From Nitrospira sp. (GTDB lineage Bacteria > Nitrospirota > Nitrospiria > Nitrospirales > Nitrospiraceae): a stretch of 64,000 bases of DNA. The notes under the pieces were generated by a model. That model made no database searches. It was given only the letters and a program-made list of their open reading frames with translations, and had not been told where the DNA came from. Below are positions 2,750-39,250 of the stretch, in pieces. The DNA lies in the NCBI GenBank assembly GCA_030123625.1, contig CP126121.1:4442179-4506178 (forward strand), written 5' to 3'. Position 1 is the first letter of the stretch. Every line of letters begins with the position of its first letter. The position numbers were made by a program, and so were the translations under genes.

Positions 2750-4735
2750 ATGAAGATCGATCTCACCGGAAACCCCTTTGTGGATACTGGATTAGCCGTC
2801 ATAGCCGCGCGAGCACATTTAGAGGATGTGCGTGACCTGACTTTAGATACTATCCGTACGGTACACGGCGATGGTATCCAGTTAACTTCATGGAACAGTT
2901 CCTTGAAAAACTTCACCATGATTTTTACCAGCAATTCTCTCCTTACAAATCCAGCTATCAAAGACAAAGCAAAACGAGCAAAGAGCTATCGAGCCGTCCT
3001 TGGTGGTCTTCTCAGCAAAATTGGCATTGAGGAGCTTTCTAAGCGCTGCGAAGCGTGCGGAACATATAGATCAGTTGATTTTGTCACTCTTTGCCGAACC
3101 GCACTTGCCGGAATTGAGATCAAGGACCAACCTCGCTTTATAGGCCGCGACTGGTTTCCATTGTCGGGAAGTCTAGGCAGCGATGCACAAGCACTCCCGG
3201 CGGCTTCCCGTCCTGTCAACCTGTGCGCTAAGTGTCTCTTTGCTATTCATTACCTTCCTCTTGGCCTCATCCTGCTAGATGGCCGGCTCGCAGTGTTTCA
3301 ATCTACCTCCATTGAGTTTTGGTATGAACTTGTGCGCGACATTGTTATCGAGGTCGAGGTTCGCATCACTGCAGGAATCTACGACACTTTTGGCGCAAAA
3401 GAGGGAAGTAAGGCCCTTGTGAAAAGGCTATTAAGCTTATTCCGTCGTCTTCAGGCTGAGCAACGGTCAAATCTCCAGCCTGGAACGGCCCTTCAAGTTT
3501 GGCGGTTCACCAACTCTGGGGCTTCACCCGAATGCGCAATTGAAGAGATTCCGAATCCTGCTCTGGTGTTTCTTCAGAAGGCTGTACAGCATGGGCTGGA
3601 TCAGGAAATTGAAACGCTGATTGGGAACGAAGGGAAGAAGGAACGGACATTGTTCCGATGTATTACCGAGCGGAAGGATTATTTCCGCCTTTATCCAAAA
3701 GGAAAATGGACTGGTGCTAGCCCCAAACTCTTTGCTCTCTACCAGGCTCATGTATGCGAGCGTTCAGGCAGAGCTCTAACACTTGCTCATACGCTGGCCA
3801 AAGAACGCGCAAAGGAGCTTCGCCCCAAAGACTTGGAGCGACTGCGTCGCGAAGAGGCATTCAAAGAACGGTCGGTTCGTAATCAATTTCAAAGCCTGAT
3901 AGCCGAGCTGTCCCAAAAGAGAAAGTTTAGCCTGAACGATTACCTGGTGCTTTTTCCGCTCAGGGAGGACGTCCCTGGCATTCAAGTGCACGGGGACGGA
4001 TGGAGGCTTGTTCGCTATTACCTGCACCATGTTGATGATTCTAATATCGAAATCACGTGTTCGGCTTCTTCGGAGGGGTGCTCACCGAAATTGGTACTGC
4101 TTCGCTTCTACAGCATACGGATACTTCAGCACTATGTTCAAGAACGTGGCAAGGAGAGGTTTCAGTCCGAAGTCCTCAACCGGATAAGACGCGGCGAGAT
4201 TGGCGCACTATGGCTTCGACGCCAATTTACCAGTTTAGCCGAAACCTATCCCGGTTTTTCCTATGGAATGTGGGAACAGCTCTGCAGAAACGAGAGAGGA
4301 GGTCTGATTCTTCATGAATTACTGTTCCAGATGCGCATACTTTGGTCAGGACTGTTGACTCAGGCTCACCCCTCGGGCATCACCCTTCAAAATTGCGAGC
4401 GCAGTTCAGGCTTACCCACCGCAGTTGAAACCTATCTACGGGAGTTATTCGCCCGGTATACGGAACAACGGGGGCTGAAGCGGTTCCATCGAGATGTGCT
4501 GGTACGTCTGCGCCGAAAGGAGATTGGACTGGGATGGTTCGAACATCAGATCAGAAACACTGGCTGGAAGCCGTCACAGCTTGCATTGTTTTCGGCAGAT
4601 GAATGGGAGAACTTCTTGAGAGATGAGAATGGCCGTCCTTTGGCAGAGGAAAGGCTTTTTCAGATGCATCTGTTGTTCGCAAATCTCTATCGTGGAGCGA
4701 CAGTAGATCACAAGGAACAGGAGGAGTCGTCATGA
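2750..4735 (+). CDS. cas8b1: Type I-B Cascade large subunit Cas8b1/Cst1
   Basis: Large subunit of the type I-B interference complex, expected to help recognise PAM and target DNA. The N-terminus GNPFVDTGLAVIAA is characteristic of Cst1. A zinc-binding pair is visible as CEAC (Cys 100 and 103) and CAKC (Cys 159 and 162), separated by the DWFPL segment and followed by LPLGLILLDGRLAVFQS, also a Cst1 feature. The protein is about 661 residues, and the C-terminal half is helical and Arg/Lys rich. Start choice: ATG at 2750, with a GTG nine bases earlier (2741) as the alternative. It overlaps cas7 by four bases. Assignment to the I-B Tneap-like branch rests on this gene together with the DevR-type cas7. 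Confidence 0.82.
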   Translation: MKIDLTGNPFVDTGLAVIAARAHLEDVRDLTLDTIRTVHGDGIQLTSWNSSLKNFTMIFTSNSLLTNPAIKDKAKRAKSYRAVLGGLLSKIGIEELSKRCEACGTYRSVDFVTLCRTALAGIEIKDQPRFIGRDWFPLSGSLGSDAQALPAASRPVNLCAKCLFAIHYLPLGLILLDGRLAVFQSTSIEFWYELVRDIVIEVEVRITAGIYDTFGAKEGSKALVKRLLSLFRRLQAEQRSNLQPGTALQVWRFTNSGASPECAIEEIPNPALVFLQKAVQHGLDQEIETLIGNEGKKERTLFRCITERKDYFRLYPKGKWTGASPKLFALYQAHVCERSGRALTLAHTLAKERAKELRPKDLERLRREEAFKERSVRNQFQSLIAELSQKRKFSLNDYLVLFPLREDVPGIQVHGDGWRLVRYYLHHVDDSNIEITCSASSEGCSPKLVLLRFYSIRILQHYVQERGKERFQSEVLNRIRRGEIGALWLRRQFTSLAETYPGFSYGMWEQLCRNERGGLILHELLFQMRILWSGLLTQAHPSGITLQNCERSSGLPTAVETYLRELFARYTEQRGLKRFHRDVLVRLRRKEIGLGWFEHQIRNTGWKPSQLALFSADEWENFLRDENGRPLAEERLFQMHLLFANLYRGATVDHKEQEESS

Positions 4736-15406: not shown

Positions 15407-16606
15407 ATGCAGACTTGTGATTTTCTCGTCATCGGGGGCGGGGTGATCGGGCTCAGCATCGCCCGGGAACTCCGTAGACGTCGGACGGACGCCCGTGTGT
15501 TGTTGATCGAAAAGGAGCCTTCCTGTGGAGCTCACGCCAGCGGACGTAATAGCGGCGTGCTCCATGCAGGGTTCTATTACTCGCCGGACAGCCTCAAAGC
15601 GAAGTTTACCCGCCTCGGAAATGAACGACTCACCGCCTATTGTGAGGAGAAGCGAATTCCTCTCAATAAATGCGGTAAGCTGGTCGTCGCGAAGGATGCT
15701 GCAGATTTGCCCTCACTCGATGAATTATTCCGTCGCGGTCAACTCAACGACATTGAGCTCCAGGTACTCACCGATGCGGAAGCCAAATCCATAGAACCGC
15801 GTGTAAAAACATACCAACGGGCCCTCTATTCTCCCCGCACCTCGACGGTAAGCCCGCTCCAGGTGGTCAATGCGATGCAGCAAGATGCACTCCGTGAGGG
15901 CATTCAAATTCAGTGTGGCACGGCTTATCGCGGACGGGACAAGGGGAAAGTTCGGACGAACCAAGACGGCATCGAAGCCGGATATGTCGTCAATGCCGCA
16001 GGTCTGTATGCCGACAAAATCGCCATAGACTATGGATTCTCGGAAAAGTATCGCATCCTGCCGTTTAAGGGCCTCTACCTCTATTCCGACGAACCACCGG
16101 GCGCGATTCGCACGAATATTTATCCGGTTCCGGATCTCAGGAATCCGTTCCTAGGTGTCCACTTCACGATCACGGCGGACGGTAAGACCAAGATCGGTCC
16201 GACCGCCATTCCGGCTTTGTGGCGCGAGAATTATGAGGGGTTCGGCAACGTCAATTTTCGTGAGCTCGTCGAAGTCGCGAGTCGAGGACTCGGGCTCCTG
16301 ACCGGGGCTGGATTCGATTTCCGACGCTTGGCGATGGAGGAGATCGCAAAATATTCACGGAGCAAGATGGTGTCGCTTGCCTCGGTACTCGCCGAGGGCG
16401 TGGTCGAGCGTCACTACCGAACCTGGGGTCGTCCAGGAATCAGAGCCCAGCTGCTCGATATCACGAAGAGAAAGCTTGAAATGGATTTCGTTTTGGAAGG
16501 CGACGACCGCTCCATGCACGTGCTCAACGCCGTGTCTCCCGCCTTTACCTGTTCACTTCCCTTCGCAAGCTATGTCTGCGATCGTATCGACAAAGCGATA
16601 GGCTAA
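15407..16606 (+). CDS. lhgO: L-2-hydroxyglutarate oxidase/dehydrogenase
   Basis: FAD-dependent oxidoreductase of the DAO family that oxidises L-2-hydroxyglutarate to 2-oxoglutarate. The N-terminal dinucleotide site FLVIGGGVIGLSIAREL is followed by ASGRNSGVLHAGFYYSPDSLKAKF, strongly characteristic of LhgO. Further blocks are GLYADKIA and the C-terminal substrate region. The 399-residue length matches the family. The ATG at 15407 has no good ribosome site but lies directly before the FAD motif. It stands alone; a piece of dispersed repeat follows. Other DAO-family enzymes are less likely. Confidence 0.88.
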   Translation: MQTCDFLVIGGGVIGLSIARELRRRRTDARVLLIEKEPSCGAHASGRNSGVLHAGFYYSPDSLKAKFTRLGNERLTAYCEEKRIPLNKCGKLVVAKDAADLPSLDELFRRGQLNDIELQVLTDAEAKSIEPRVKTYQRALYSPRTSTVSPLQVVNAMQQDALREGIQIQCGTAYRGRDKGKVRTNQDGIEAGYVVNAAGLYADKIAIDYGFSEKYRILPFKGLYLYSDEPPGAIRTNIYPVPDLRNPFLGVHFTITADGKTKIGPTAIPALWRENYEGFGNVNFRELVEVASRGLGLLTGAGFDFRRLAMEEIAKYSRSKMVSLASVLAEGVVERHYRTWGRPGIRAQLLDITKRKLEMDFVLEGDDRSMHVLNAVSPAFTCSLPFASYVCDRIDKAIG

Positions 16607-31197: not shown

Positions 31198-32474
31198 TCA
31201 CTTTTTCCACCAAGAGGACAACGGGAAAGCCGTCGGGATCCGGAGCGTCACTTGGAGGTCGGGCGCTTCACGTGTCGCGCCGATTCCGACGACGAAGTTG
31301 ATAAAGCTGCGATCACTCCATCGATAGGAGCCGCCGATGAGCAAGACTCCGATTTGAATGACTTGCGGCGTGGTGGTGAGGAGCAGGTTGGAGGCAGACG
31401 TGGGTTTCGAAAAGACGGTATGGTCATATGCCAGCGTCAACGATAATTTCTCATTCAGCGATACGCCGAGCCCCACATTGGCATTGCCGCCGCTTCCAGG
31501 ATCGACACGTCCGACATTGCCGCCGACATCGCGAGGCATATTATAAATAAAACTCACACTGCTGAAGATGACGACCGGATCGCTCGGGTACAGCATGGTC
31601 AGGCCAGGTTGAAAAATGTAAAACCCCGACCCGGTCGGTAATTCTGTCTGCACCCCTGTCACCGGGTCTCTCGGCACTTCGAATGGGCCCCTCCCGCTGA
31701 CACTCTTGAATCGTGTGAACCCGATGAAATACGGTTTATCCGCCCCCCCTTGATTGAGCTGAAATCGACCTGTTGTTTCAACATCTCCGAGACCCGAACC
31801 GTTGAAGGTCGAGATGGTATCAGCCTGCGATGGGGTGGCAATGGGTCGCTGCGTGATCGAGTCCTCCCGATACAGAAAGGGCACACGCACCTCAACCTCC
31901 ATCCGATTCGTCAATCCGTAGCGACCGACCAGTGCTGCGGTATAAATGTCCCGGCTTATACCTTGGATATTGATGAATCCGGCCGTTAAGGCCGGAACGA
32001 TGGTGAACCCGGTCAACGTCACACGATTACTACTCAGATGGGGAACTGGAGATACGGCTCCACGATAAGCGTGCCCTTGGGCGTCAGCACCCCGGCACCA
32101 GGCAAATCGAAGGTGCGAGTCATCCATGAAGGAAGAATCTCTTGTGGACTAGCCGGAGCGACGCCGACCGGACCGGCAGGTTGCTGACGTTCTGAAGAAC
32201 GCTTTCGCGCGTCGGGCTCATCCTGCTCGCGGGGTTGAGGCTCAGCTGCCTGGGCGGTCTGTTCGTTTGCGGCGATATATTGCGGCGTATCGGCCGACCA
32301 TCGAGAGCGCGGCGCTTGAAGATTCGTGGATTGGCTGAGATTTAAGCGATCAACATGATTGTCGGAGGTCTCAGACCGAGCTGCATTACCCTCGTAGGGA
32401 GCTAGGTTTCCGATGAGTCCAAGAGCGAAGGCGAGCCAGAAAATTCTATAAGCTTGTCTCACAGCTCTCAACAC
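31198..32474 (-). pseudogene. FapF-like outer-membrane barrel protein, frameshifted
   Basis: Two overlapping frames make one protein. The first (32474 to 32034) starts with a signal sequence and a Gln/Glu/Pro-rich low-complexity linker and ends TPKGTLIVEPYLQFPI. The second (into 31198) continues HLSSNRVTLTGFTIVPALTAGFINIQG and then alternating beta segments to the end, resembling the Phenol_MetA_deg/transporter barrel family. The junction is a run of four C on the minus strand near 32040; five would restore one frame of about 425 residues. As the last gene of a Fap-like operon it would be the outer-membrane pore. It may be a true pseudogene, a programmed shift or a sequencing error; the coding quality on both sides favours recent change or error. 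Confidence 0.7.
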
Positions 32475-32481
32475 TTCGCCT

Positions 32482-32985
32482 TCAATGTCGGATCGCCTCT
32501 ATGCTGGCCTGTGAAAGCGCGTTTCCGAGGTCGAGCGCTCGGGCCCACGTCAGTGCCGACACCGTGGCATTGATGACGGTGTGGCTCTGAATGGCTTGAT
32601 TGTCCAGTGAATTTTGAATGACGGTGGTCAATGGCGGAAGCGAGGACAGGTTATGAGGGACTGAATTACCGCCTCCATGGTGGATGAGCGTGAAGGCATC
32701 GCCCGCCTTGTCGGCCAACCGCGACAAGTCTGGAATATTCAGTACGGTCGAAGTGATCAGTTTATCATTGAGAAACACGCTCCGCTCGATTCCAAATGAC
32801 ATCATGGGACCATCCGGGTGATGCTGAAATCCACCCCGCATACCATCCAAGATTTCTTCGCTCACCGGCGTCCGGAGCGTAAAGTCCTCAATGCTCTCAT
32901 AGGCCATGACTGGACTCATCGATTGCACGCCCAGGAAAATCAGGAACACAACCATCCGGCGAATCGATCTCAATAAGAGGCGCAT
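32482..32985 (-). CDS. Exported protein with a double-glycine motif (FapE position)
   Basis: A 167-residue protein beginning with a Sec signal (VVFLIFLGVQSMSPVMA). Just after it comes VSEEILDGMRGG, ending at Gly52, which fits the LxxxxLxxMxGG pattern cut by C39 peptidases. A region FGIERSVFLNDKL and a C-terminal VIQNSLDNQAIQSHTV resemble the two other exported proteins of the cluster. The ATG overlaps the stop of the C39 peptidase gene, so the two are coupled. In the fap operon this position is fapE. Role inferred. Confidence 0.7.
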   Translation of the reverse strand: MRLLLRSIRRMVVFLIFLGVQSMSPVMAYESIEDFTLRTPVSEEILDGMRGGFQHHPDGPMMSFGIERSVFLNDKLITSTVLNIPDLSRLADKAGDAFTLIHHGGGNSVPHNLSSLPPLTTVIQNSLDNQAIQSHTVINATVSALTWARALDLGNALSQASIEAIRH

Positions 32986-33668
32986 CAGAAATCCCTCCCC
33001 CCCGGGCGAAACAGGACGATGTTGTTCAATGTGTCGGGGCTGAGCGGCCGACCGAGTGGGGACATCGGACGGACGCTCCAATCACGGGCTGTATTGAATT
33101 CCCCACGCGTCGGAAAATCATGAATGACAAACACGACCCGGCTGGGCCATGAGGCTTCAAACTGCTCGCGCGGCACGACACGTAATCCGACTGCCGGATC
33201 GCCGAGCAGCACCTTATCGCCCCGCATGCCTTTCACCACCACAAAATGGTGATACCCCTTATCCACCATCAGCACGATCGCCGGAATGCCGGCCTTCATT
33301 ACTTCATCCAACGAGACTTGAAAGCCGTCAGCGGGATAGCCCTGGGCCTCTAAGAATCGCTTCATGTCCAGGAATGAAAACCCTTCCTTCTGGATTTTTT
33401 CCTGGTTGCCATGGTCGAACATCGTGCGGAACGCCGTCTCTTCAGTAAGAGGATGATCGTAGTGATACGTTAAAAGGGTGGCAACGGCGGCCGAACCACA
33501 ACTATAGTCATACTTCTGAAGGATGACGGATCGGACCTTCAGTTCGCGCATACTCCAGATTTGAAGGAGCATCCGGCTCCCCACGCCCGGAGTCACCTCC
33601 ACCGTTGCCGCTGTCGCGATCGACAGCATCACCGCAACCATGTATTCGACGATCTGTTTCGTCGACAT
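32985..33668 (-). CDS. C39-family peptidase (FapD-like)
   Basis: A 227-residue cysteine peptidase of the bacteriocin-processing C39 type, without an ABC transporter. The catalytic set is complete: Gln51 and Cys57 in VILQKYDYSCGSAAVATLL, His140/141 in GYHHFVVVKG, and Asp157 in LLGDPAVGLRVV. An N-terminal hydrophobic segment (MVAVMLSIATAATV) suggests export or membrane anchoring. Neighbours on both sides carry double-glycine motifs just after Sec signals, making them likely substrates. FapD of the fap amyloid system is a peptidase of this kind in the same relative position. Confidence 0.85.
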   Translation of the reverse strand: MSTKQIVEYMVAVMLSIATAATVEVTPGVGSRMLLQIWSMRELKVRSVILQKYDYSCGSAAVATLLTYHYDHPLTEETAFRTMFDHGNQEKIQKEGFSFLDMKRFLEAQGYPADGFQVSLDEVMKAGIPAIVLMVDKGYHHFVVVKGMRGDKVLLGDPAVGLRVVPREQFEASWPSRVVFVIHDFPTRGEFNTARDWSVRPMSPLGRPLSPDTLNNIVLFRPGGRDF

Positions 33669-33674
33669 CGCCGT

Positions 33675-34019
33675 CTATTTCATCGTGAGGTTCAGAACGG
33701 TACCGCTCTGAATGATCACGTTGTTGCCGGAATTCTGGATGACGATCGGCAATCCACTCGCTCCGGCAAACGCGTTGCCATTGATCGTGTTATTGCCGGT
33801 CACGTTGTCTATGGCGGCATTGTGGTTCAGCTTAGCGTTCAGGAAATTCGCATTGATCGTGACCGGGCCGGTATCCGTTCCTCCCCGTTGGGTGTCCAAC
33901 TCAGCCAAGGGAATAGGATTGCCCCAGGACGTGATCTTCGTCGTTTCCGGCGAGCCGGCATGCGCCATGCCTGCGAAAACCCCGAGGATGCTCATCACCA
34001 TTGAAAAATACATTCGCAT
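33675..34019 (-). CDS. Small exported protein with a double-glycine motif (Fap subunit-like)
   Basis: A 114-residue protein. The ATG at 34019 has GAGAGGG five bases upstream and gives a Sec signal ending GMAHA. The sequence IPLAELDTQRGG (Gly46-Gly47) fits the LxxxELxxxxGG leader motif. The predicted mature part is only 67 residues, rich in Asn, Gly and Thr (LNHNAAIDNVTGNNTINGN) and ending in VIQNSGNNVIIQSGTVLN. Such Asn/Gln-rich short repeats recall amyloid subunits. It lies six bases before the C39 peptidase gene. I do not recognise a named family. Confidence 0.72.
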   Translation of the reverse strand: MRMYFSMVMSILGVFAGMAHAGSPETTKITSWGNPIPLAELDTQRGGTDTGPVTINANFLNAKLNHNAAIDNVTGNNTINGNAFAGASGLPIVIQNSGNNVIIQSGTVLNLTMK

Positions 34020-34051
34020 AATGCCCTCTCTGAATCGGAACTGATCCAGCG

Positions 34052-34080
34052 GGCTGGAGGAGCCTCCGGCTCCTCCAGCC
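34052..34080. other. Strong stem-loop between two Fap-like subunit genes
   Basis: GGCTGGAGGAGCC (34052-34064) and GGCTCCTCCAGCC (34068-34080) are perfectly complementary over 13 bp with a three-base loop. It is just after the Gly-rich gene stop (34090, minus strand) and before the next start (34019). No T-run follows, so it is more likely a partial terminator or an mRNA 3'-end stabiliser that lets the first gene be expressed at a higher level than the rest. Confidence 0.7.
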
Positions 34081-34089
34081 GGATTTTGC

Positions 34090-35001
34090 TTAGTGAACCG
34101 TGACGTTCGCCATCGTGGTGACACCGACCTGCTGAAGGGCCGCGATCCCAGTGTTCTGAATGGCTACAGTCACACCGGCGGCGCCGCTAAATCCAGAAAG
34201 CGTATTCGAGGCATTGAAGGTCCCGGCGCTTCCGCCGTATGTATCCCCTCCACGACCGCCATCTCCACCGTGTCCACCAGTCGCAGTTGCAGTTGACGTT
34301 CCGCTGGTGGCAGTTCCACCTGCCCCGCCGTTCCCACCGGTTGCCGCACCACCATGACCGCCTGTTGCATTACCAGCCTCCCAATCGCCATCCCGGGCGC
34401 TACCGTTATTGGGGCTGCCATTGGCATTGCCATCAGTCGCAGTGCCGCCGTTGGACGGGCCACCATTGGTGCCGTTGGAAGTATTGCCGCCTCCGGCAGT
34501 GGCAGCGCCGCCATGGCCACCTTTGGCATAACCACCATCCCCACCATAGGAATAGGCTTTCCCAGAATGCGCATCAGCTTTGGCCTTCCCGCCATCTCCA
34601 CCATACCCCCCAGGGCTGAAGGAATAGGCGTCGCCGCCGCGATTGCCGACGTTGTCGATGTGGTTACCCGACACATAGCCATCAAGCTTGGTGGCATTGA
34701 CGATTTTGGTCGTGTTGAACGCGTTGTTCAGAGCCACATCCAGTCTGGTATAGGCCGTCGAATGGTTGTTGGCCGCCGCCCCAAAGGCACCCTCGTTCTC
34801 GGCCTTTCCTTTGTAGACGGTCTTGTCGTCGTGGCTGTCCTTCGTCTTTGTGACGTCAATATTTTTGGTGACGTCAATATTTTTGCTAATAGGTGGGCTT
34901 TGTGGTACTACCGGTACCGGGCTACGTTGTTGGGCATTCGCGAAGGGCGACAGACCGAAGGCCAATGCCACTGCTGCCGTCGTGATCATCACTTTCTTCA
35001 T
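34090..35001 (-). CDS. Gly-rich exported protein, putative amyloid/filament subunit
   Basis: A 303-residue protein with a clear Sec signal (VALAFGLSPFANA) and GGAGG before the ATG. After a short repeat (KNIDVTKNIDVTK) comes a domain with LDVALNNAFNTTKIVNATKLDGYVSGNHI. A long region of about residues 120-265 is dominated by GG dipeptides (GGYGGDGG, GGHGGAATGGNGG) with Asn, Ser and Thr. The C-terminus VAIQNTGIAALQQVGVTTMANV shares its IQN pattern with the two other exported proteins. No double-glycine leader is obvious. First gene of the operon, so it is likely the most expressed. Low-complexity beta-rich composition fits a surface polymer. Confidence 0.72.
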   Translation of the reverse strand: MKKVMITTAAVALAFGLSPFANAQQRSPVPVVPQSPPISKNIDVTKNIDVTKTKDSHDDKTVYKGKAENEGAFGAAANNHSTAYTRLDVALNNAFNTTKIVNATKLDGYVSGNHIDNVGNRGGDAYSFSPGGYGGDGGKAKADAHSGKAYSYGGDGGYAKGGHGGAATAGGGNTSNGTNGGPSNGGTATDGNANGSPNNGSARDGDWEAGNATGGHGGAATGGNGGAGGTATSGTSTATATGGHGGDGGRGGDTYGGSAGTFNASNTLSGFSGAAGVTVAIQNTGIAALQQVGVTTMANVTVH

Positions 35002-35986
35002 TGCATCCTCCTAAACATTAAACGGTTAGAAAAATGTCGAAGCACACACACCGACCTTCGCACAGCGATTGCTGTTCACCTCCCTTCGCATAATTCTTTT
35101 CTGATCTCTCGTTTCTTAACCTCTACAAGTCTCATTTCCCCTCACCCCGGCCTCCGGCGATTCGTCCCACAGCACCACATGGACGTGCACATGCAGAGCA
35201 GGAACCTGATCTTGGATTTGCTCTTCGAATTGACGGTTGCGTAAGTGATCGTTCTCCTCATTCGGTTCACGATGCGCCATGCCAACACCCGCAGCCATGC
35301 GTGGCTGCCGAACCGCAACTCGTCGAACCCCCACGAGCCCTGAATTCTGTGAGCGTAGACCGCTTCTCTCATGGAAAATATATTTGCACTTACCCTATAA
35401 AACTTCGGAATAATTAATTCATTGATTACCCGACTGTGTCTGATCGCTGCACACCGCGCATAACGTTTAACGTTGTTAGGTCAGCTACGAGCAATCCAAA
35501 TGCCTAGGAGTAAGTGCTTGATCTTCTAAGGCTTAGTGGAATGACTAGGGCCGATTACGGAAAGAATGAGGTCGATTGTTCTATTACGTTACAGTCGGCT
35601 GCGGAGCTACTCATGTCCGAACGGTAGACTCGGCTTCCACGGCTCCAGATGAATGCATGCGTAACTCATTGACTTAATTAGGACTATTTCGCACATGGCG
35701 CAAGTATTCTTACCTGTAGAAGAATCGCGGAATTATTTTGTGTTGTTCTACAAATGGACGGAGCTGAATGGCTCCCTTGACAGAACGTTGGATCGTTTCA
35801 CAATTCTCGACCTTCGGTACACAAATACGCAGGTGAAGAAGATCGGCTAGTCTTGAAGAGATTTCACGAGGAAGGACGCGTTTCGGTGCGAACCAGTGCC
35901 TCTACACCACGTTCCTGTTGTACAGATCTAGAACGCAGCACGCCGGTTCGTATTCCCTGAACTCGCTCACCACATCAGGGGGTCGC
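35002..35986. other. Long AT-richer intergenic region upstream of the Fap-like operon
   Basis: 985 bases between the Gly-rich gene and the truncated activator. The first 100 bases hold the operon's ribosome site and two copies of TGCGAAGG on the minus strand flanking AGCAATCGCT. Around 35116-35370 there is an open minus-strand frame with a His/Val-rich patch (ALHVHVHVVLW) but no start signal or family. A + strand TTGACA at about 35776 with ACAATT 17 bases on resembles a promoter facing no gene. No convincing sigma-54 site was found. The rest shows nothing. Confidence 0.4.
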
Positions 35987-36941
35987 CTATGACTCCGCGT
36001 GATTGGACATGGTCGCGCAAGAGTCGGCCGCCGGAAGCACGAGTTTTTCAAGGTTGTATGCCCGAAGTTTTCTGTACAAGGTCGTTCGACTCACTTCCAG
36101 CTCGCGCGCCACACGGGTCAAATTCCCTCGATGCATGCTGATCGCCTTGATGATCAGTTCTACTTCAATCCGGCGGTGCGCAGCCCGTAAGGAATCGAGA
36201 GAGTCTTCAGGTTGGAGCATGTCGTAGGTTAAATCCAAGTCGCGAGGCGTAATTTCCTCGCCTTCCGCCATAACCACGGCTCGTCTGACCTTATTGCTGA
36301 GCTCCCGCACGTTGCCGGGCCAGGCATAGGACTGAATCGCTTTGATGGCCTCGGAGGTATAGCCCCGTATCGGCTTCCGATAGAAGGCTGCAGTTCGCCT
36401 GAGAAATATCATGGCCATGAGCGAGGTGTCCTCCCCTCGCTCCCGAAGCGGAGGAAGATGAATGTGCATCACCTCCAATCGATAATAGAGATCCTCTCGA
36501 AACAGGTTCTTGTCGATGGCCGCCTTGAGATCGACGTTGGTTGCTGCGATCACGCGCGCATCGACGCGGAGAGTCTGCTGTCCGCCGAGTCGCTCAAACG
36601 TGCCCTCCTGCAAAAAACGGAGCAGCTTGACTTGCAGCGGCGGAAGCAGATCGCCGACTTCATCGAGAAACAGGGTGCCGCCCGCCGCCGCTTCGATCTT
36701 CCCTTTCTTTTGCTGGACCGCCCCGGTAAAGGCTCCCCGTTCATGTCCGAAGAGTTCCGACTCCAACAACGTTTCAGGGATGGCGGCGCAATTAATCGGC
36801 ACAGAGGGGCCTTGCCTCCGCAGGCTGCGATCATGAATCGCTTGGGCAGTGAGTTCCTTGCCCGTACCGGTTTCGCCGGTAATCAACACTGGCATGTCGG
36901 TTTTCGCCACCTTCCGAACCAGATCGAAGACCGCGCAAATC
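35987..36941 (-). pseudogene. Sigma-54-dependent activator, 5'-truncated at the IS1595-like element
   Basis: AAA+ activator of sigma-54 RNA polymerase. Walker A GETGTGKE, GAFTGA loop (ERGAFTGAVQQKKG), Walker B GGTLFLDEVGD and the Fis-type C-terminal helix (LTRVARELEVSRTTLYRKL) are intact over about 305 residues. The frame is open upstream into ICAVFDLVRK and then meets the end of the insertion element at 36942. The receiver or sensor domain expected at the N-terminus is missing. A GTG at 36910 could start a constitutive AAA+/DNA-binding fragment. It lies upstream of the Fap-like operon and may have regulated it. Confidence 0.75.
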
Positions 36942-36960
36942 GAGGGCGATTATGTTAATC

Positions 36961-38307: not shown

Positions 38308-39228
38308 TCAGCATTCTGCTATGACATCGTTGAACACGTTCGGATTCTCTCGGTTATTGTGGCGGTAGCTGAATTCGGCCAGGTACAACGGCAAATAGTC
38401 TTTGCTCACCTTGTGATAGGTGCCAATGACGCCACGCTTCAAGAGGCTCCAAAAGCTATCCAGGTTCGCTGTATGAACATTCCCGCGCACATATTCGCCC
38501 TTGGCATGGCTGACGGATTCATGAGGGATGCCCATATGTTTCAGCTTACGATAGCCGCTATGCTCATCCGTGGCGACCAGAGAGACATTTTCTCCGACTG
38601 TTTGCCGCACAAAGCCTTGCAAGGTTTCAGCGTTTACTTGCTCAATGATCTGAGCAACCACGTTGCCTTTGCGAGCGATAGCACCAATGACGGCCACCTT
38701 GCCCTGTGTTCCATGTCCACCAGGGTTTCCCTTTCGTCTTACCGAAATGTGCTTATTCTTGAACTTGCCGCCAATATAGGTTTCGTCAACCTCCACTTCA
38801 CCCATGAGCTTTGCAAATCCACCATCTTGCATCGCCGCTCGGATGCGATGGCACATATACCAAGCGGTTCGGTAGTCTCCGGTTCCGATTTGCCGATGGA
38901 TCTGCAAGGCGCTGATCCCCTTCTTGCTGGTCATCATCAGATAGATCACCTGAAACCAGGTGGTAAGGGGATAGTTGGTATTATCAAAGATGGTCTTTGC
39001 AATGACTGAGAATCGGTACCCGTTGGGCCCCCCACAATCCTTTGCCTTGCATACCCAGTGAAACGGGCGCTTTTTCAGCTCATAGACTTTCTTATTTCCA
39101 CAACGAGGACATGCCACGCCATTCGGCCAGCGAAGGTTCTTCAAGTGTTCCTTGCAGGCCTCTTCAGTCGAGAACTGCTTCATCAACTGACCGAGTGTGA
39201 TGGCTGGTTGCGTGGTGAGCGGTTTCAT
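38308..39228 (-). CDS. IS1595-family transposase
   Basis: DDE transposase with an N-terminal zinc ribbon (CPRCGNKKVYEL...CKAKDCGG) and the ISXO2-type catalytic domain: VEVDETYIGGKFKN, ATDEHSGYRKL and VHTANLDSFWSLLKRG, giving the D, D and N/E-type site of IS1595. The ATG at 39228 has GGAGG upstream; the open frame extends five codons further. At 306 residues with all motifs it looks intact. Its promoter overlaps the right inverted repeat. Confidence 0.93.
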   Translation of the reverse strand: MKPLTTQPAITLGQLMKQFSTEEACKEHLKNLRWPNGVACPRCGNKKVYELKKRPFHWVCKAKDCGGPNGYRFSVIAKTIFDNTNYPLTTWFQVIYLMMTSKKGISALQIHRQIGTGDYRTAWYMCHRIRAAMQDGGFAKLMGEVEVDETYIGGKFKNKHISVRRKGNPGGHGTQGKVAVIGAIARKGNVVAQIIEQVNAETLQGFVRQTVGENVSLVATDEHSGYRKLKHMGIPHESVSHAKGEYVRGNVHTANLDSFWSLLKRGVIGTYHKVSKDYLPLYLAEFSYRHNNRENPNVFNDVIAEC

Positions 39229-39250
39229 ATGGCCTCCATTCAATGAGGCC

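Follow-up and report, generated by a model that had tools for sequence, protein, structure and literature searches.

In a 64,000-nucleotide stretch of a Nitrospira sp. genome (contig CP126121.1; the whole stretch is referred to as the window), a five-gene operon on the minus strand encodes the Gly-rich protein A and the small, Asn-rich protein B, both exported, a peptidase of the C39 type, a further exported protein, E, and an outer membrane barrel. We propose, with a probability of roughly two in three, that these genes specify secretion machinery of the FapD/FapE/FapF type, which serves surface proteins that self-assemble and belongs to a lineage sister to the classical Fap system. Fap, the functional amyloid of Pseudomonas, is encoded by fapABCDEF. 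The operon itself is genuine. The list of open reading frames (ORFs) and their translations agree on five parts between positions 35001 and 31198, in the order given by the original prediction, and since other Nitrospira and almost all of the 80 closest loci have the five-gene block in unchanged order, the grouping of these ORFs is not accidental.

The C39 protein matches the Pfam family Peptidase_C39 (PF03412) with an E-value of 4e-21 and the NCBIfam model of FapD (NF058616) with an E-value of 7.2e-38, ahead of FilB (7.6e-33). The barrel matches the crystal structures of FapF (PDB 5o65/5o67, E-value 1.3e-23), and its match to the NCBIfam model of FapF (NF058560) has an E-value of 3.8e-27; these scores, like every NCBIfam score of the window proteins, lie far under the equivalog cut-offs (330 bits for FapD and 700 bits for FapF). 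In the peptidase, Q51, C57, H141 and D157 form invariant alignment columns, and an N-terminal export signal is present. Class II microcin export via PCAT ATP-binding cassette (ABC) transporters shares the C39 fold and the double-glycine leader consensus with the window system; however, the window peptidase, with 227 amino acids (aa), consists of the C39 domain only and lacks an ABC transporter. Because the peptidase and its substrates appear to be exported via Sec, cutting would be periplasmic. In a profile-profile comparison, protein E aligned with FapE (P 1.1e-5) at a score of 45.3, as against 11.2 on reversal and no more than 19.0 in 40 shuffles; the match is confined to the leader and the FGIE region. 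Judged by this comparison, E is a remote FapE homolog. The operon also shares the order subunits-C39-E-barrel with Fap. The originally predicted equivalence with Fap thus holds for the C39 protein, E and the barrel as homologs of FapD, FapE and FapF, and it is not supported for A and B, which are not recognizable as FapB and FapC.

Double-glycine leaders have an established consensus. A near-invariant VSxxxLxxMRGG leader is found in B and E downstream of a probable Sec signal: in B, the Sec-like signal is followed by a pro-segment ending in IPLAELDTQRGG and then by the predicted mature peptide, and in E, it is followed by the leader VSEEILDGMRGG. When the motif was placed by a simple score, it was present in 91 of 91 E and 89 of 94 B family members, with two Nitrospira genomes entering these counts twice. 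Because the simple score favored a hydrophobic residue at position -7, the analysis was redone unanchored; the resulting whole-ORF alignments of B show L conserved to 100% and the two G residues to 98% and 97%, and in those of E, each residue of L, R, G and G reaches 100%. Double-glycine leaders are cut according to a GG/GA rule (PMC10233263), and the shared site probably marks B and E for trimming by the C39 peptidase. The motif can be aligned with canonical FapE, all 13 sequences of which carry the type LSDxELxxMRG[RK][YF], so that R or K replaces the last G of the window's lineage, and RGGF is found in the intermediate Nitrospirota systems L044, L045-L047, L058 and L059. The last leader residue covaries with a position in the (A/G)-(D/R)-G-(F/Y) segment of the peptidase, which is D in the window's lineage and R in canonical FapD; the charge complement is not obvious, and this position as a candidate determinant of peptidase specificity is only a lead.

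Secretion of FapC is reported to depend on the catalytic cysteine of FapD; furthermore, Fap proteins are said to have no canonical C39 sites, the target of FapD was called unclear, and no peptide from the N-terminus of mature FapE was seen (PMC5557850, PMC6173800). The leader conservation in the sister lineage, the aligned motif of FapE and the missing N-terminal FapE peptides together point to FapE, and to an exact site within it, as the target of FapD. A further-reaching reading, to which we give somewhat better than even odds, is a widespread second class of C39-FapF secretion systems. In this class, Sec-exported proteins would carry a second, double-glycine leader, at which a C39 peptidase free in the periplasm would cut them; the equivalent LSDxELxxMRG[RK] would be the site of FapD in classical Fap, and FapE would be its substrate. 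No description of the FapE leader or of the A/B subunit pair was found in the accessible literature, which comprised few subscription journals and no bioRxiv preprints.

According to phylogenetic trees, the locus is outside the canonical Fap clade and is part of a sister lineage that also includes Burkholderiales, Xanthomonadales, Sphingomonadales and other Nitrospirota. In the tree of the C39 peptidases (59 rows), canonical FapD, represented by 14 sequences, is a clade of its own (support 100/85), and the window sequence groups with Nitrospira (99/98) within the clade of the A-B-C39-E-barrel system (100/96). The barrel tree (55 rows) is concordant, with values of 97/97 for canonical FapF, 100/99 for the A-B-C39-E-barrel system and 100/100 for Nitrospira. 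The original view of a possible divergent Nitrospira branch of Fap is therefore too simple, the sister lineage being common in Proteobacteria. The best 80 C39 relatives in a collection of species genomes were taken as loci; four of them belong to Nitrospira sp. and nearly all the others to Burkholderiales and Xanthomonadales. B and E were detected in all 80 loci, A in 78 and the barrel in 77, several loci being cut by contig ends and the barrel lying on the opposite strand in some. The gene order is kept in Nitrospira and its sister genus, and two plasmids of sphingomonads (Alphaproteobacteria) carry the same layout. Canonical FapC is missing in 23 of the 25 tested genomes with the system, including the window genome; of the two genomes in which it is present, one is probably misbinned. 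A locus from a metagenome-assembled genome of Candidatus Eremiobacteraeota (L127) was considered as a representative of a further phylum and rejected: its peptidase groups closely with that of Dyella flava (100/99), and its operon strongly resembles that of D. flava, so that misbinning or contamination is the probable origin of the contig. It was reported previously that complete Fap systems are restricted to Beta-, Gamma- and Deltaproteobacteria, with many FapD and FapF matches elsewhere (Dueholm, PMC3792158), and that fapD and fapF are co-localized in five more phyla, the subunits of which are not described in the main text of that study (Rouse 2018, PMC6173800).

Within the family of the window genome, a barrel match was found in 19 of 175 genomes, mostly as an open frame across the whole match; the window genome, a single contig of 4.69 Mb, contains one FapF-type gene. 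Two genomes of the same genus contain barrel fragments with stops (G213:C51 ~3047-3673 and G235:C13 ~15895-16233), which suggests repeated loss of the system. Other arrangements were also seen: in the Massilia loci L123 and L146, the whole operon is present in two copies inside a single locus, and related operons of another Nitrospirota family (L045:5500-8197, L046 and L047) have two barrel genes in tandem, one of which encodes an extra N-terminal region resembling an OmpA-type periplasmic domain.

The proposed machine would work as follows. A, B and E would cross the inner membrane via Sec, as their signal-like N-termini suggest, and the periplasmic C39 peptidase would cut B and E after VSxxxLxxMRGG, releasing a B peptide of 63 to 76 aa (median 64 in the family) and a longer mature E. 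Protein A, which has no such leader, probably escapes this cut. The processed proteins would exit via the FapF-type barrel, with assembly taking place extracellularly. A has a Sec-like signal (MKKVMITTAAVALAFGLSPFANA), a body rich in Gly, Ala, Thr and Asn and a C-terminal module (AAGVTVAIQNTGIAALQQVGVTTMANVTV), and it is probably the major secreted subunit. B, which has a QN-(S/T)-G C-terminal module in common with A (P 9e-7 for the tail of A against B, profile-profile), could be a small partner or nucleator. E, which aligns with B via the leader and the C-terminal module (P 4e-10), might act as a fiber-associated or gating factor like FapE. Transcription of the operon is probably turned on by a sigma-54-dependent activator encoded upstream. 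Of this picture, the homologies, the gene order, the conservation of the leader and the frameshift are observed, and the cleavage, the order of export, the roles of the subunits and the formation of fibers are inferred.

This activator matches Pfam PF00158 (E-value 7e-67) and is a putative, probable regulator of the operon. In 11 of the 12 other Nitrospiraceae copies examined, such a gene lies 0.5 to 1.1 kb upstream on the same strand, and similar genes are found upstream in about 15 Burkholderiales loci and near the two canonical Fap loci inspected (L169 and L176). A close match to the -24/-12 consensus is present in 32 of 81 upstream regions, compared with 3.1 expected (maximum 7 in 50 simulations). 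A small ORF with the VVLWDE motif or a similar one precedes A in most Nitrospira copies and is a possible sixth gene; LWDE proteins, some with a leader-like segment, are also encoded near canonical Fap genes and in other Nitrospirota systems. Small (V/I)LWDE proteins were seen beside FapD/FapF systems in the window and at L169:9342-9656, L172:6241-6582, L173:6760-7098 and L044:4413-4769, and the secreted ones often have a leader-like LxxxELxxIxG segment.

Several results weigh against the proposed secretion machine, the support for which is computational. None of A, B and E has a Pfam or NCBIfam match at an E-value of 1 or less, and A and B are thus missed by the FapB and FapC models; in the positive control, the Fap locus of Aeromonas caviae, FapB (8e-22), FapC (1e-50), FapD (3e-74), FapE (2e-12) and FapF (6e-111) were all recognized. 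The original assignment of A and B to fapB and fapC also disagrees with the gene order, as a large subunit followed by a small one is the reverse of the small fapB followed by the large fapC. Three approaches were used to look for a link between Fap repeats and the tails of A and B, namely profile-profile comparison with decoys, a hidden Markov model (HMM) of the repeats and iteration through the Nitrospirota locus L044, and the links obtained are weak. B aligned with FapB at P 0.001, in the register of a Fap repeat and above all 40 shuffles, which is suggestive. The repeat HMM matched two L044 subunits (0.0015 and 0.015) and, once these had been added, one alphaproteobacterial A protein (5e-4); neither the original nor the iterated HMM matched A or B of the window. 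Taken together, A and B may have evolved from proteins with Fap repeats. Structure prediction with AlphaFold gave a confidence (pLDDT) of 59 and no secondary structure for mature B, and a pLDDT of 73 with no PDB match at an E-value of 0.001 or less for mature E; the predicted folds were excluded from the evidence because of the low pLDDT and the lack of a PDB match. As judged by a simple heptad score, none of the ten intact Nitrospiraceae barrels inspected has a heptad segment like that of FapF. A Pro-rich linker replaces it in these barrels, whereas most of the FapF sequences and almost all of the proteobacterial relatives that were inspected have the heptad-rich N-terminal segment. Since the N-terminal coiled coil of FapF is reported to be critical for FapC secretion (PMC5557850), export in Nitrospira must be gated otherwise. 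Upstream of the operons in Nitrospira, the search yielded no sigma-54 promoter, all 32 matches among the 81 regions lying outside this genus. Finally, a DNA alignment with six other genomes revealed TTCCCC in the window and TTCGCCC in the nearest relative, a one-base deletion within the barrel gene.

The outer membrane barrel of the original prediction is indeed encoded at the locus, however, in two frames and not as a single ORF. When the intact 427-aa barrel of locus L048 was mapped onto the window, the frames met between 32043 and 32040, the N-terminal part corresponding to L048 residues 1-147 (84% identical) and the C-terminal part to residues 149-427 (97% identical). Because one base is missing near 32041, the listed 309-aa ORF (31198-32127) opens with about 29 out-of-frame residues. 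The split implies that this copy represents either a recent loss or a sequencing error. That the locus is a decaying, functionless remnant in this genome, which would be compatible with a secretion machine in the lineage, is a tentative possibility well short of even odds: the acidic tail of the VVLWDE ORF is deleted in the window, and the broken barrel fragments of the two other genomes of the genus fit this picture as well, whereas the other four L048 operon genes map to the window in a single frame each and are intact, both barrel halves retain high identity to L048, and a single indel may reflect an assembly error.

If the locus were a true Fap system in which FapB and FapC had diverged past recognition, this would account for the homologies to FapD, FapE and FapF, for the B-FapB alignment that beats all decoys and for the extension of the repeat profiles to an intermediate from Nitrospirota and an A protein from Alphaproteobacteria. 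We consider such a system unlikely, as the peptidase and barrel of the window fall into a separate clade in both trees, and FapB and FapC matches are lacking at the window even though remote Fap members do match. Furthermore, the Nitrospiraceae loci L058 and L059 retain clear FapC-type repeats, so time in Nitrospirota alone does not erase them. Two further differences from Fap are the large subunit in the leading position and the lack of fapA in the window's operon. The locus most likely works like Fap, yet if Fap is defined by its subunits and clade, the locus falls outside it. The two loci just mentioned are of interest in their own right: L058:4610-9831 (G260) and L059:2670-8864 (G204) encode at least three subunits with clear FapC-type repeats (NF058558, E-values of about 1e-15 to 1e-17). 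Like the window locus, they have a C39 peptidase, an E protein with an RGG leader, a FapF-type barrel and an LWD(D/E) protein; however, their barrels are only about 32-34% identical to that of the window, and with their repeats, these systems are closer to real Fap.

Export of a bioactive peptide instead of fibers, with mature B acting in signaling, autolysis or like a bacteriocin, has a published precedent in the nap island of Neisseria, in which a C39 peptidase (NapP) and a FapF relative (NapF) handle the double-glycine peptides NapA-C (PMC11798529). The 63 to 76 aa of mature B following a double-glycine site would suit such a role, which nevertheless appears rather improbable: the Naps are autolysis-promoting, cationic helical peptides of 16-36 aa, whereas mature B, with a median net charge of -1, is neutral to acidic and has a high content of N, V, A, G and T; furthermore, the large protein A as well as E have its C-terminal module, and no immunity or holin gene was seen within the operon. 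In addition, the window system differs from nap in its large Gly-rich partner and its FapE homolog. The putative pilus system Fil of Acinetobacter (FilA-FilF) also has an adjacent C39 peptidase (FilB) and barrel (FilC) and an exported subunit encoded first, and the window barrel matches FilC (2e-13) as its C39 protein matches FilB. Membership in the Fil family was rejected and is very improbable, as FapD (130 vs 114 bits) and FapF (95 vs 50 bits) score higher, neither filE nor filF is present in the operon, and in the barrel tree, a very long branch separates FilC from the window's clade.

The features of the locus are listed in Table 1. Near the operon region on the upstream side, the window also contains a gene for an IS1595-type transposase (38308-39243).

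Table 1. Features of the operon and its upstream region (window positions)
Feature	Position	Strand	Length	Remarks
Protein A	34090..35001	minus	303 aa	basis: ORF list and translation
Protein B	33675..34019	minus	114 aa	predicted 67-aa mature peptide at 33675-33878
C39 peptidase	32985..33668	minus	227 aa	no ABC domain
Protein E (FapE-like)	32482..32985	minus	167 aa	predicted mature part at 32482-32829
Barrel, N-terminal part	32034..32474	minus		signal, Pro-rich linker, start of barrel domain
Barrel, C-terminal part	31198..32040 (about)	minus		beta-barrel, FapF-type channel; other frame than N-terminal part
One-base deletion splitting the barrel gene	32040..32043	minus		basis: DNA alignment, frame switch
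Small ORF with VVLWDE motif	35116..35280	minus		MAHREPNEENDH...HVVLWDESPE; possible sixth gene
Sigma-54-dependent activator	about 35987..36949	minus		AAA+ plus Fis helix-turn-helix, no receiver domain

That a FapF-type barrel can be encoded beside a FapD-type peptidase outside Proteobacteria is already reported in general terms (PMC6173800). The main value of the locus is the exact predicted site of FapD-type cleavage, and its weakest points are the proposed formation of fibers and the split barrel. The site provides an exact and cheap prediction for cleavage in an important amyloid system and makes the substrate of FapD directly testable. Furthermore, the system adds an uncharacterized family of surface proteins to nitrifiers, Burkholderiales and Xanthomonadales, which may have a role in the formation of flocs and biofilms.

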